Positions 12,257 to 16,096 of a stretch of 64,000 nt of DNA are shown piece after piece. Within the stretch, counting starts at the first letter, position 1; every line of letters starts with the position of its first letter. This stretch comes from Kosmotoga olearia TBF 19.5.1 (GTDB lineage Bacteria; Thermotogota; Thermotogae; Petrotogales; Kosmotogaceae). The translations under genes were made by a program, and so were the position numbers. The notes below the pieces were generated by a model. That model did no database searches and was not told where the DNA came from. It saw only the letters and a list, made by a program, of their open reading frames with translations. Location of the stretch: the NCBI RefSeq assembly GCF_000023325.1, contig NC_012785.1, positions 1,612,001 through 1,676,000 on the forward strand, given 5' to 3'.

Positions 12257-13390
12257 GTGAAACAAAGGATTCTGATGACGTTTGATAAAAAGGATTTTTC
12301 TTTGTTATGCTTCGAAAAAGGGACATTGTATGTCGATGGTGAAGGTGGACAACTGGGGGATAGGGGGAAAATAGATGGTAATAAAATCCTTCAGGTTAAG
12401 AGAGTAGATGGATATCCTTGTGCCGTGATAGAGAAGAAAAATAATTACAGTACTGGTGAATTTGTTGAATTAGAATTGGATTTAGAGAGAAGGGTCGATA
12501 TTGCTCAACAGCATACCGCACAACACCTGTTATCTGCAGTTGCACTTCGTGAACTTGATGCTGAAACAGTTGGGTTTCAAATGGGCGAAGAGTTTTCCAC
12601 AATAGATCTCACCATCGGTTTGCTGGAGGATAAGATGAAACGTTTACTCGAAGATGTTTCTAACGATTGCATTTTGAAACTTCTTCCAGTGACGGTAAAA
12701 GAGGTAGATCCTTCGGAGATCTTTCGATACAACCTTAGAAAATCTGTGAGTGATAAGATACTGGAAAAGGCTGAAAAAATCAGGCTGGTGAAGATTGAGG
12801 GAATTGACGTAAGTCCATGTGGCGGATTTCATGTGAAGAATACAGGCGAGGTCGGGTTGCTTAAAATCCTTAAGGTAGAAAAGGTAAAAGGAAATCTTAC
12901 GAGAGTATATTTTGTTGCCGGAAAGAGGGCTATCAGGGTTTTTCAAAATGAACATTCAATTCTAGGATCTCTTGGAAAACTTCTGACTTGTGGTTATCAT
13001 GAACTGGTATCACGGACTCAATCAATTCTTGAAGATCTGAAAATTATGAACAACAGGATAAAAGGATATGTAGAGAGGATCGCTAAAGAAACAGCTAATA
13101 ATTTATCAGAGAATAGTTCAGAACTTTTACTTTATGAAGACGATGAAGAGATACTTTCAATGATTCCACGTTTTCTCGATAAAGAGTGTTATATTTTCTT
13201 TGGTAAAGCAGGTGAAAAGATTATCTTAGCCTCAAAGGGTTACGACCTTACAATTCTTGTCAAAGAGTTAAAAAGCCGGTTTGATATAAAAGGCGGAGCT
13301 GGTAAAACCAGAGGGCAGTTTGTCTATTCGAAAGAGCTTGATGAGCTTATTGAATTTACCCTTCACTGGATGAAAGGAGAGAAATCATGA
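12257..13390 (+). CDS. alaX: Alanyl-tRNA editing protein, AlaX-L type
   Basis: A stand-alone editing enzyme that hydrolyses mischarged tRNA(Ala) (Ser- or Gly-tRNA). It has an AlaRS-like second additional domain with the zinc ligands HTAQH (H86, H90) and CGGFH (C188, H192), then a C-terminal DHHA1-like part ending in GGGAGK-like GGAGKTRG near residue 340, hence the long (377-residue) AlaX-L class. It starts with GTG at 12257; the ATG three bases upstream in another frame stops at once. Its stop overlaps the dnaB start by ATGA, so the two are co-translated. Confidence 0.85.
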   Translation: MKQRILMTFDKKDFSLLCFEKGTLYVDGEGGQLGDRGKIDGNKILQVKRVDGYPCAVIEKKNNYSTGEFVELELDLERRVDIAQQHTAQHLLSAVALRELDAETVGFQMGEEFSTIDLTIGLLEDKMKRLLEDVSNDCILKLLPVTVKEVDPSEIFRYNLRKSVSDKILEKAEKIRLVKIEGIDVSPCGGFHVKNTGEVGLLKILKVEKVKGNLTRVYFVAGKRAIRVFQNEHSILGSLGKLLTCGYHELVSRTQSILEDLKIMNNRIKGYVERIAKETANNLSENSSELLLYEDDEEILSMIPRFLDKECYIFFGKAGEKIILASKGYDLTILVKELKSRFDIKGGAGKTRGQFVYSKELDELIEFTLHWMKGEKS

Positions 13391-14742
13391 ATCCGAAGAT
13401 ACCACCACATAGCAACGAAGCAGAGGAGGCAGTTATAGGTAGCATACTCATAGACCCTGATGTCATTCCAGATGTTATGGAGATCCTCAGGAGCAATGAT
13501 TTTTATTCCATCAAACATCGCACCGTGTTTGCCGCAATAGAGGATCTCTTTGATCATGGAAATCCTGTGGATGTCGTCTCTATCATTGAAAAATTAAGGA
13601 GTCAGGGTTCTCTAGAAGATATTGGTGGAGAGGTTGAAATTATGAAGCTTGCCGATATCGTACCCACCGCAGCGAACGTTGTATATTATGCAAAGATAGT
13701 GAAGGAAAAGGCGTTGATGCGCGCCTTGATAAATGCTGGAAGTAAGATTGTAGAGGAAGCGTATCAAGCGGAGGATGTGGATCAGCTACTTGATGATGCT
13801 GAAAAGCGAATATTCAGGATAACGGAAAGTCATACATCCCGGACCTATGAAAACCTTGGAAAGGTTATGCATTCGGTTTTTGAGGATCTGGAAAAACTTA
13901 AAAATACAGCGGGAACGATAGAAGCTGGAGGCTTGATAACGGGGATTCCTACGGGATTCAGACAGCTTGACAAAATGACAACAGGTTTTCATCAATCTGA
14001 TTTGATAATTATTGCGGCGAGGCCTTCGATGGGAAAAACCGCTTTTGCGTTGAATATCACGAAAAATATGGCGTTGAAGCACGACATTCCCGTGGCTTTC
14101 TTCTGTCTTGAAATGACAAAGGAGCAGCTCGCCCAGAGGCTCCTGTGTTCGGAAGCCAGCGTCGATCTTCACAAGGTGAGGACGGGTTTTCTCAGCAAGC
14201 AGGAGTGGGAGCTCCTTACGAATGCTGCGTCGCGTTTGTATAAATCAAAGATAGTGGTAGATGATGAACCATCCCTCGATCCCAGAACTCTAAGGGCCAA
14301 GGCAAGGAGAATTAAATCGGAATACGGCGTACAGGTTATCTTTATAGATTATCTTCAGCTTATGCACCTGAAGGGCCGTTCTGAAAACAGGCAACAGGAA
14401 ATTTCAGAAATCTCCCGTTCTTTAAAGCTTCTGGCAAGAGAGCTCAATGTGGCGGTTGTTGCATTGTCGCAGCTTTCCCGTGCTGTCGAGCAGCGTGAAA
14501 ATAAGAGACCGCGATTGAGCGATCTTCGAGAATCGGGGGCCATCGAGCAGGATGCAGATATGGTTATGTTTCTCTATCGTGATGACTATTACAAGAGCAA
14601 ATCTGAGGTTCAGGATCAACCGCATGAGTCGGAGGTTATAATAGGAAAACAGAGAAATGGTCCTATAGGTACGGTGAAGCTGATATTCAATCCGAAAGTC
14701 GCGACATTTTTCGATGAAGTACCGAGTGAGTTTGTTGAGTGA
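13387..14742 (+). CDS. dnaB: Replicative DNA helicase DnaB
   Basis: This hexameric 5'-3' helicase unwinds DNA at the replication fork. The 451 residues cover the N-terminal domain (about 1-105), the linker, and a RecA-like core with Walker A ARPSMGKT near 211-218, Walker B VIFIDYLQLM near 315-324 and the SQLSRAVE and ESGAIEQDADM motifs that mark DnaB. No intein is present. The ATG at 13387 overlaps the alaX stop. The gene ends at 14742, directly against the hairpin-repeat block. Confidence 0.97.
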   Translation: MNPKIPPHSNEAEEAVIGSILIDPDVIPDVMEILRSNDFYSIKHRTVFAAIEDLFDHGNPVDVVSIIEKLRSQGSLEDIGGEVEIMKLADIVPTAANVVYYAKIVKEKALMRALINAGSKIVEEAYQAEDVDQLLDDAEKRIFRITESHTSRTYENLGKVMHSVFEDLEKLKNTAGTIEAGGLITGIPTGFRQLDKMTTGFHQSDLIIIAARPSMGKTAFALNITKNMALKHDIPVAFFCLEMTKEQLAQRLLCSEASVDLHKVRTGFLSKQEWELLTNAASRLYKSKIVVDDEPSLDPRTLRAKARRIKSEYGVQVIFIDYLQLMHLKGRSENRQQEISEISRSLKLLARELNVAVVALSQLSRAVEQRENKRPRLSDLRESGAIEQDADMVMFLYRDDYYKSKSEVQDQPHESEVIIGKQRNGPIGTVKLIFNPKVATFFDEVPSEFVE

Positions 14743-15332
14743 GACGAGAGTCGCTACGCGGCTGAAGTGCTGGGCTACGCCCAGGAGGCTCACGACGTTG
14801 ACGCTTGCGAGGCTGAGGCTTGCGGACGCTGATAAAAAAACGAGATTCGAGATCCGGGATCCGAGAACCGGTAGCCGCTGTGCGGCGGAAGTGCTGAGCT
14901 GCGCTCAGGAGGCTTGCAGACGCTGTGTTCGGCTTCGCCGGGGCTATGTGTGACTTTGTCACGGCCATGCGCAACTACGTTGCGGCCATAAAAATTGAGA
15001 TCAGGTAACCGAGATCCGAGAGGAAGTGCGGTTCGCTAACGCGAACGAAGTGAATGTGGCTACGCCACAGAAGTGAGGTTGACTGTGTCAACGAAGCGAA
15101 TGCATTTTGGTACTGATGATTTCCCGGATCTCGGGTTTTATTCAGCGTATGCAAGCCTCAATCTCGTGAGCGTCAGCCTCAGCAAGCGTCAGGAGCGAAG
15201 CTCCGCGCATTAATCAGTGAAACTCATTTCCAGCATCATTTGCGTCGGCAAATCCAAGCGTCAATGGTATTAGCCGTTCTCGGATCTCGGATCTCGAATT
15301 TCGACTCTCGGTTCTCGTCATTTAGAGAGGAG
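14743..15332. repeat. Non-coding array of small hairpins and inverted GAGATCCGAG repeats
   Basis: This 590-base gene-free stretch between dnaB and the next operon is visibly richer in G+C than its flanks. It holds many perfect mini-hairpins of 5-6 bp, most with 3-base loops: CTGGGC-TAC-GCCCAG (14770-14784), GCCGC-TGT-GCGGC (14874-14886), CTGAGC-TGC-GCTCAG (14894-14908), CGGC-TTC-GCCG (14930-14940), GTGAC-TTT-GTCAC (14950-14962), CGCAAC-TAC-GTTGCG (14970-14984), GTTCGC-TAAC-GCGAAC (15031-15046), TGTGGC-TAC-GCCACA (15055-15069), GTTGAC-TGT-GTCAAC (15078-15092) and GGAGC-GAA-GCTCC (15192-15204). GAAGTG or GAAGCG often follows a hairpin. A diverged long inverted repeat links 14795-14868 with the reverse of 15122-15299, and CGAGAGTCG (14745-14753) with 15302-15310. 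CCCGGATCTCGGGTTTT (15124-15140) could end dnaB transcription. I do not recognise the family. Confidence 0.8.
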
Positions 15333-15340
15333 GTTACACA

Positions 15341-16096
15341 ATGATTCACGCAAAGGATCTTACCAAGCGTTTTGGTGATCTTGTCGCTGTTGATCATGTT
15401 TCGCTGGATATTCCGGCCGGGCAGATATATGGTTTTCTTGGCCCTAATGGGGCTGGTAAAACGACAACGATAAAAATGTTAACAGGTATTTTGAGACCAA
15501 CCGAGGGAAAGATTCGGATTCTAGGAATGGATATGGATAAAGATGAACTTGAAATAAAGAGACAGATAGGGGTTGTACCAGATGAACCGAAGATGTACGA
15601 TAACCTTAAAGGATTCGAATTTGCGAGATTCATAATGGAGATATATCGTGTCCCAAAAGAAGAGACGGAAAGAAGATTTTACGAAATTTGCAAGGCCTTC
15701 AGCATCGACTACCTTGACAAATTTATAAGCGATTATTCTCATGGAATGAAACAAAAGCTCATGATGGCGGTAACTTTGATGAGACAACCCCGGGTCATCT
15801 TTCTCGATGAACCGACTGTGGGACTCGATGCCAGAAGTGCGAAGATTCTGAAACTGTGGCTCAAGAAGATGGCACAGACGGGTGCAACGATATTCTTGAC
15901 CACTCACGTTCTTGAGGTTGCGGAAAAAATGTGTGACAGGATTGGAATAATAGACAAAGGCAGGTTGATAGCGCAAGGTACTCTGGAAGAGTTGAGAGAA
16001 CTCTCCGGCGATAAAAAGTCAAGTCTGGAAGACCTTTTCCTGGAACTCACCGGTGGTAACGAATTCAAAGATATAATCGATCAGCTCGGAGAGTGA
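15341..16096 (+). CDS. ABC transporter ATP-binding protein (ABC-2 type)
   Basis: The ATPase of an export-type ABC transporter, 251 residues. Walker A is GPNGAGKTTT near residues 35-44, the signature YSHGMKQKL near 137, Walker B VIFLDEPTVGLD near 153, and the H-loop TTHVLEVAEK near 188. DrrA/CcmA-like proteins of this length pair with a membrane protein of the ABC-2 class, here the next gene. ATG at 15341 has AGAGAGGAGGTTACAC upstream, just beyond the repeat block. The substrate cannot be told from the sequence. Confidence 0.92.
   Translation: MIHAKDLTKRFGDLVAVDHVSLDIPAGQIYGFLGPNGAGKTTTIKMLTGILRPTEGKIRILGMDMDKDELEIKRQIGVVPDEPKMYDNLKGFEFARFIMEIYRVPKEETERRFYEICKAFSIDYLDKFISDYSHGMKQKLMMAVTLMRQPRVIFLDEPTVGLDARSAKILKLWLKKMAQTGATIFLTTHVLEVAEKMCDRIGIIDKGRLIAQGTLEELRELSGDKKSSLEDLFLELTGGNEFKDIIDQLGE

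Follow-up and report, generated by a model that had tools for sequence, protein, structure and literature searches.

Dispersed mini-hairpin arrays in Kosmotoga olearia: a probable REP/BIME-like mobile repeat with one copy next to dnaB

The window analysed here is a stretch of 64,000 nucleotides (G000:1612001-1676000) from the single-contig, 2,302,126-bp genome of Kosmotoga olearia (G000). Within it, the replicative helicase gene dnaB and an ABC transporter ATPase gene are separated by an intergenic gap of 598 bp (14743-15340), of which about 577 bp, starting directly past the dnaB stop and ending at an approximate right boundary (15319), constitute the block studied. The parts of the block are listed below together with the flanking genes; bit scores are those of R1, a covariance model of two hairpins.

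13387..14742, + strand: dnaB (replicative helicase), left neighbour, outside the element; ORF of 451 aa
14743..15319, no strand assigned: whole insert, delimited from the direct adjacency of dnaB and the ABC gene in nine relatives and from a comparison of the ends
14749..14784, - strand: two-hairpin unit CTGGGC-gta-GCCCAG / CACTTC / AGCCGC-gta-GCGACT, with one mismatch in the second stem; R1 match, 38.3 bits
14785..14832, + strand: accessory module GAGGCTCACGACGTTGACGCTTGC..., a neighbour of many arrays, present again in part at 14909-14925 and in reverse at about 15139-15192
14839..14872, + strand: CGAGATCC-type tract (inverted repeats I2, I3, I6, and I14); reversed copies at 15121-15137 and 15271-15319
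14873..14908, - strand: two-hairpin unit CTGAGC-gca-GCTCAG / CACTTC / CGCCGC-aca-GCGGCT; R1 match, 37.0 bits
14928..14984, - strand: three units in 21-nt register, CGCAAC-gta-GTTGCG / CATGGC / CGTGAC-aaa-GTCACA / CATAGC / CCCGGC-gaa-GCCGAA, the third read straight off the sequence and decayed; R1 match at 14949-14984, 36.2 bits
15031..15092, - strand: variant group with a spacing of 23-24 nt and longer linkers, GTTGAC-aca-GTCAAC, TGTGGC-gta-GCCACA, GTTCGC-gtta-GCGAAC; weak R1 match, 15.1 bits
15192..15204, + strand: hairpin GGAGC-gaa-GCTCC, within the half of the block that is reversed (hairpin scan)
15238..15253, + strand: hairpin ATTTGC-gtcg-GCAAAT (hairpin scan)
15341..16096, + strand: ABC transporter ATPase gene, right neighbour, outside the element; ORF of 251 aa

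The block is a mosaic in which opposed CGAGATCC tracts and an opposed GAGGCTCACGACG module flank three hairpin groups in 21-nt register and the variant group; two kinds of module that are not hairpins, which the original prediction had not set apart, are present in both orientations, namely, tracts of CGAGATCC type and a module of GAGGCTCACGACGTTGACGC type. A scan of the block found ten hairpins with perfectly paired 5-6 bp stems within 14770-15253, including eight with 3-nt loops (TAC three times, TGT twice, TGC, TTT, and GAA) and two with 4-nt loops. Triloop stems of at least 5 bp numbered 8, against a mean of 0.7 and a maximum of 4 in 1000 dinucleotide shuffles of the 590 bases, and those of at least 6 bp numbered 5, against 0.2 in such shuffles. 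Hairpin density across the window peaked at the block (7 per 590-base slice versus a window mean of 0.77). The original prediction, which had counted at least ten such stems, mostly closed by triloops, was thus borne out far beyond the shuffles. Its statement that the stem sequences all differ held inside the block but not genome-wide, where a small set of stems recurs. The hexamers GAAGTG and GAAGCG, which had been noticed behind many stems, follow about half of the hairpins and correspond to a 6-nt linker on the opposite strand (CACTTC or a related sequence). The true repeat period is 21 nt, which is clearest in other copies and in the minus-strand pairs of the block at 14749-14784, 14873-14908, and 14949-14984.

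Orthologues of dnaB were found in all 16 relatives searched. The ABC ATPase gene lies within a few tens of bases 3' of dnaB in G001, G002, G003, G005, G006, G007, G008, G009, and G010; a different gene is next to dnaB in G004. Since the nine relatives have dnaB and the ABC ATPase gene side by side, the block reads as an insertion into a conserved gene junction, the one locus at which an empty site was read. The termini of the insert are inverted copies of GACGAGA (one site compared).

Copies elsewhere, whose number the original prediction had proposed to establish, proved to be abundant. A similarity search of the block against its own genome gave 105 matches at dozens of places, and R1 gave 199 matches. 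In total, 87 intergenic array clusters (about 90 copies) were catalogued in K. olearia; these clusters are not fully independent and part of the loci were picked by similarity to the block, although the R1 search covered the whole genome. About 0.51 Mb of stretches was analysed in detail, the genome-wide counts coming from genome searches. Since dnaB is the neighbour at just one of the approximately 87 places, the suggested replication-related site tied to dnaB found no support. Arrays were also present in other Thermotogota: R1 matched 34 times in G002, 58 times in G006, 12 times in G008, and a few times each in G003, G007, and G009. Across 103 Thermotogota genomes, R1 matches occurred in 11, and many relatives had no arrays by this model. 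A pattern scan of GTDB with the AACTCC unit gave eleven matches, three of which were arrays in Thermotogota metagenome-assembled contigs; among the rest, the five that were read were single hairpins in unrelated DNA, in about the number expected by chance, and were set aside. The block had no match among plasmids and phages. A side observation concerns R1 matches at identical coordinates on G004:C111 and G042:C46 (also L124 and L131), in genomes of two families. The two sequences may represent a shared or misbinned contig, and a binning error in G004 is likely because its matches are on a single contig and their coordinates repeat in G042, which belongs to the other family.

The array unit consists of a 15-nt mini-hairpin (a 6-bp stem and a triloop, nearly always C-GNA-G) and a linker, with an exact period of 21 nt. 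On one strand, it reads N5-C, GNA (or ANA), and G-N5, followed by a 6-nt linker that begins and ends in C (CGNNNC, CACTTC, CATAGC, and similar). In the first 128 kb of array loci analysed, perfect stems of at least 6 bp with 3-nt loops numbered 244 versus a uniform expectation of about 31, and loops of 4-8 nt were modestly raised (48-71). Neighbouring loops in the same loci were exactly 21 nt apart in 87 cases, and other short spacings were almost absent.

So as not to favour paired units, pairing was assessed in the unit next in register after a perfect hairpin, where pairing was not required: 66 of 157 such units were paired at six of six positions, versus 2 of 1413 out-of-register controls, and 28 of 157 were paired at five of six, versus 15 of 1413. 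In 144 distinct units picked on loop and register only, pairing was far above independence at every stem position and weaker at the outermost one; these units included 28 different perfect stems, the inner positions of which use several Watson-Crick types. Both-sided switches also occurred within homologous slots with the rest of the unit fixed, AC[C/T]GGC...GCC[G/A]GT pairing in 23 of 26 cases, AACTC[C/T/A]...GAGTT in 78 of 82, and GC[N]GC...GC[N]GC in 92 of 99, counted over copies and not over independent events. In alignment A1, the covariation score was 0.95 versus 0.20 after shuffling, a difference that is partly built in, A1 having been chosen on pairing. The 28 perfect stems and the both-sided changes in homologous units agree with the earlier view that the block is more than a decayed gene and that its stems keep pairing as their sequence changes.

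The stems also follow an order. In the first catalogue, about 120 adjacent transitions contained no stem pair in both orders, and the main array type ran ATCGAC > AACTGC > AACCAC > AACTCC > ACCGGC > AATCCC > CGCCGC, with units missing. The fuller catalogue held a few exceptions, for example a repeated AACCAC at 2138503 and ACCGGC before AACTGC, AACTCC, or AACCGC at 876988, 1503082, and 215461; the order is therefore strong but not absolute. Because the stems keep one order with units missing, the copies appear to descend from ordered master arrays by the loss of whole units. Arrays in G008 (L106) have similar stems (AACCGC, AACTCC, and AATTGC) but the linkers CAGGGC, CAGAGC, and CATAGC in place of CGNNNC, and linkers therefore seem, by this sequence comparison, to diverge faster than stems between species. 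At L033 (G000:97500-99000), there is a 1.4-kb tandem duplication of an array and accessory-module composite, in three near-identical rounds.

K. olearia has two genes, at 1.342 and 1.356 Mb, that scored above the Pfam cut-off for Y1_Tnp; their best NCBIfam match was REP_Tyr_transpos (E of about 1e-18; 67-68 bits, below the curated cut-off of 80). An HVH motif and one invariant tyrosine (Y131), which we take to be catalytic, are common to seven members of this RAYT-like family, and a search of the protein against PDB sequences returned nothing at 1e-3. The two K. olearia copies have 839 nt in common at 95% identity, including 79 array-derived nucleotides past the stop; the 250-nt 3' flank of one copy (L062) matches arrays across the genome, and an R1 array flanks both copies at the 3' side only. 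Both copies (L061, G000:1354079-1357414; L062, G000:1340480-1343815) resemble a mobile unit of about 840 nt with an array-derived 3' end. The copy at 1.342 Mb is near an ORF that resembles, by eye, a CRISPR RAMP protein. Array clusters were concentrated in the same region, 32 of the 87 falling within 1.25-1.45 Mb, where 7.6 were expected. In G002, 8 of 19 array loci lay within 178-248 kb, with a RAYT gene at 222 kb; the three R1 matches of G007 were each 1.2-1.7 kb from a RAYT gene. The array nearest to the RAYT gene of K. pacifica was about 1.4 kb away, and none adjoined it; RAYT-like genes occurred with no R1 match in G010 and G016, and arrays occurred with no RAYT match in G008 (83% complete). 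The rise in clusters around 1.35 Mb could have a cause other than the transposase.

These features are largely those of REP/BIME elements and their RAYT (TnpA-REP) proteins (PMC2817692, PMC3733652, PMC6006769). Such elements, too, are present in many copies between genes, form short, small-looped hairpins whose stems change in a compensatory way, cluster as mosaics, and share their genome with RAYT-like genes that have a flank derived from the repeat. The number of copies exceeds the more than 100 intergenic palindromes of the classical REP definition. That definition also calls for a tetranucleotide, GTAG/GTGG (or GYRG), at the hairpin's 5' foot (PMC3733652, PMC2817692), whereas the array hairpins have no GT(A/G)G foot: their 5' neighbours are the CGNNNC/CACTTC linkers or, on the other strand, GNNNCG/GAAGTG. 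The arrays differ further in their strict 21-nt register with 6-nt linkers, in their near-universal C-GNA-G loops, in having different stems in order instead of one repeated palindrome, and in flanking the RAYT gene on one side only. They work like REP/BIME elements but lack two classical marks, the GTAG foot and two inverted repeats flanking the RAYT gene. Judged from the open literature searched, the dispersed-repeat behaviour is itself known, and the anatomy appears to be new relative to known REP/BIME repeats.

K. olearia is reported to carry CGTC-3 REPs and to have no CGTC repeats flanking its tyrosine transposase genes (PMC3733652). The CGTC-3 REPs are likewise intergenic and palindromic and are often near arrays, but they have a different sequence, with a single longer hairpin, a CGTC tag at its foot, a loop of 4-5 nt, and no 21-nt array; the array units have 3-nt loops and no CGTC. 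Elements of CGTC REP-like type (GTCATTCTGGARATG...TCCAGAAT; GAGATCCTGAATCAAGTTCAGGATGAC) were observed close to many arrays (L043, L044, L058, and others), the GTCATTCTGGARATG...TCCAGAAT elements being assigned to CGTC-3 by eye. The claim that the block belongs to no recognised family accordingly stood with respect to Rfam 15, whose covariance models gave no match at the gathering threshold or at E up to 1, but the literature does contain this related, different repeat of the same organism. No description of the arrays themselves was found in the open literature, subscription papers lying outside the search. MITEs are characterised by terminal inverted repeats, a target-site duplication, and a parent transposon. 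Resemblance to them extends to a non-coding insert, inverted ends, and internal inverted modules; no target-site duplication was seen by eye at the dnaB site, and no parent transposon with matching terminal repeats came to light. CRISPR arrays likewise have regularly spaced short palindromic units but consist of identical direct repeats and unique, similarly long spacers and are confined to one or a few loci, whereas the mini-hairpin arrays have varying stems, 6-nt linkers as spacers, and about 87 dispersed loci.

The block is probably a copy of a mobile repeat of Kosmotogaceae that is dispersed, non-coding, mosaic, and REP/BIME-like, has a core of mini-hairpins in 21-nt register, and is mobilised by RAYT-like proteins. 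A REP-like or MITE-like element had been among the original suggestions, and it is favoured by the many copies, the insertion at a conserved junction, and the adjoining RAYT-like transposase genes. The copies, the one-site insertion, the anatomy (register, loop class, and order), the compensatory stem changes, and the RAYT association are established by the analysis; the proposed mechanism goes further in assuming single-strand action, protein contact, and a direction of causation. When the GNA strand became single-stranded, at a replication fork or in an excised intermediate, its hairpins would fold and be bound by a RAYT-like HUH protein, which would copy or move array segments into intergenic DNA, mostly near its own gene. 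The array repeat would be non-autonomous; arrays would lose whole units by deletion between similar linkers and would accumulate as modules, and template-switch correction may help keep the stems perfect. Any benefit of the arrays to the cell would be secondary or absent.

A role of the hairpins in RNA, whether as stabilisers of mRNA 3' ends, as a transcription attenuator between dnaB and the ABC gene, or as a small RNA, is unlikely. The block folds strongly as RNA (z of -7), arrays in TNC sense tend to lie nearer gene 3' ends than those in GNA sense, and read-through at the block is likely because both neighbours are on the + strand. The z-score, however, largely reflects long inverted repeats, and against an RNA role stand the lack of an Rfam match and the mixed gene contexts (24 ++, 24 +-, 18 --, and 16 -+); that gene strand sets array orientation was rejected as an explanation, the bias being weak (26:16; p = 0.16). 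Wobble pairs show no sign of retention on either strand, since among 576 unselected inner-pair cells G-T (14) was not favoured over A-C (23), which argues against an RNA role. The structured non-coding RNA of the original prediction was disfavoured on these grounds. DNA hairpins closed by GNA triloops are reported to be extraordinarily stable (PMC4686876), and a role in DNA is favoured because the loop class is DNA-stable, wobble pairs are not kept, and gene context and orientation are mixed. In DNA folding, the GNA strand of one four-unit array reached -20.3 versus -16.4 kcal/mol for the TNC strand, with minimum-energy folds that were not a plain row of hairpins; a two-unit piece of the block gave the reversed order (GNA, -10.0; TNC, -10.9), so that this energy model shows no general difference between the strands. 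Transcript-level effects at particular sites may occur.

The second alternative is mutational self-correction, in which template switching at forks (quasi-palindrome correction) keeps the stems, covariation arises without selection, and the arrays are junk. Stems that are Watson-Crick paired with few wobble or single-mismatch intermediates, and decayed units standing beside perfect ones, are consistent with it. Such correction is compatible with the mobile-repeat reading, but alone it leaves the C-GNA-G loop class, the 21-nt register, the linkers, the fixed order, and the copy number unexplained, and we consider it rather improbable.

There is also a slim chance that the arrays are domesticated chromosome-architecture sites, bound by a nucleoid or replication protein and maintained together with their polarity. 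Their spacing of 21 nt is close to two helical turns of DNA, and all 13 arrays in 1.28-1.345 Mb were on the + strand, whereas all 15 in 1.365-1.435 Mb were on the - strand (L045-L054 and L175-L180). Elsewhere, however, orientation was mixed (23 +, 31 -, and 5 mixed), so polarity does not follow whole replichores, and many relatives do without arrays. An origin or terminus at the orientation switch found no support: dnaA (at 1 kb), the 16S genes (at 1.206 and 1.771 Mb, both +), the GC skew (ambiguous), and parS (uninformative) agreed on no single position. The complete switch, at about 1.345-1.365 Mb, is the site of the two RAYT-like genes; coding strand offered no obvious explanation for it, and it may stem from local, directional spread. 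Remains of a repetitive protein-coding gene, suggested by a period that is a multiple of three and by short open frames overlapping some arrays, were rejected because the arrays are intergenic in both orientations and, within the block, the frame is interrupted by linkers and other modules, and an assembly artefact, which the original prediction had named as grounds for dismissing the block, conflicts with the recurrence of the architecture in several separately sequenced genomes; either is very improbable.

The arrays provide a testable candidate partner, of unusually regular architecture, for the K. olearia tyrosine transposases without CGTC flanks (PMC3733652). We also consider, as a tentative extension, that the arrays may form a distinct class of mobile or domesticated DNA with single-stranded DNA as its working form, recognised as a multi-hairpin register instead of a tagged single hairpin and spreading outward from a transposase gene with fixed polarity. 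With hundreds of units showing compensatory changes and few intermediates, selection on DNA structure should be separable from template-switch correction. The C-GNA-G triloop class is shared with GNA-loop DNA mini-hairpins that were studied as designed oligonucleotides (PMC4686876), whereas in K. olearia it is natural and occurs by the hundred. A natural genome, of an organism that grows up to 79 C, is enriched in a class of DNA hairpins that chemists know for extraordinary heat stability. The intergenic content is 0.13 in K. olearia versus 0.06 in Thermotoga maritima (PMC5674127), and arrays can account for part of the high K. olearia value because the array-holding gaps total about 62 kb. 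Lastly, long perfect hairpins with stems of 17-18 bp and loops of 3-4 nt were observed beside arrays at L061 (1039-1076) and at L054 (near G000:1429650), and one of them ends in a terminator-like T run.
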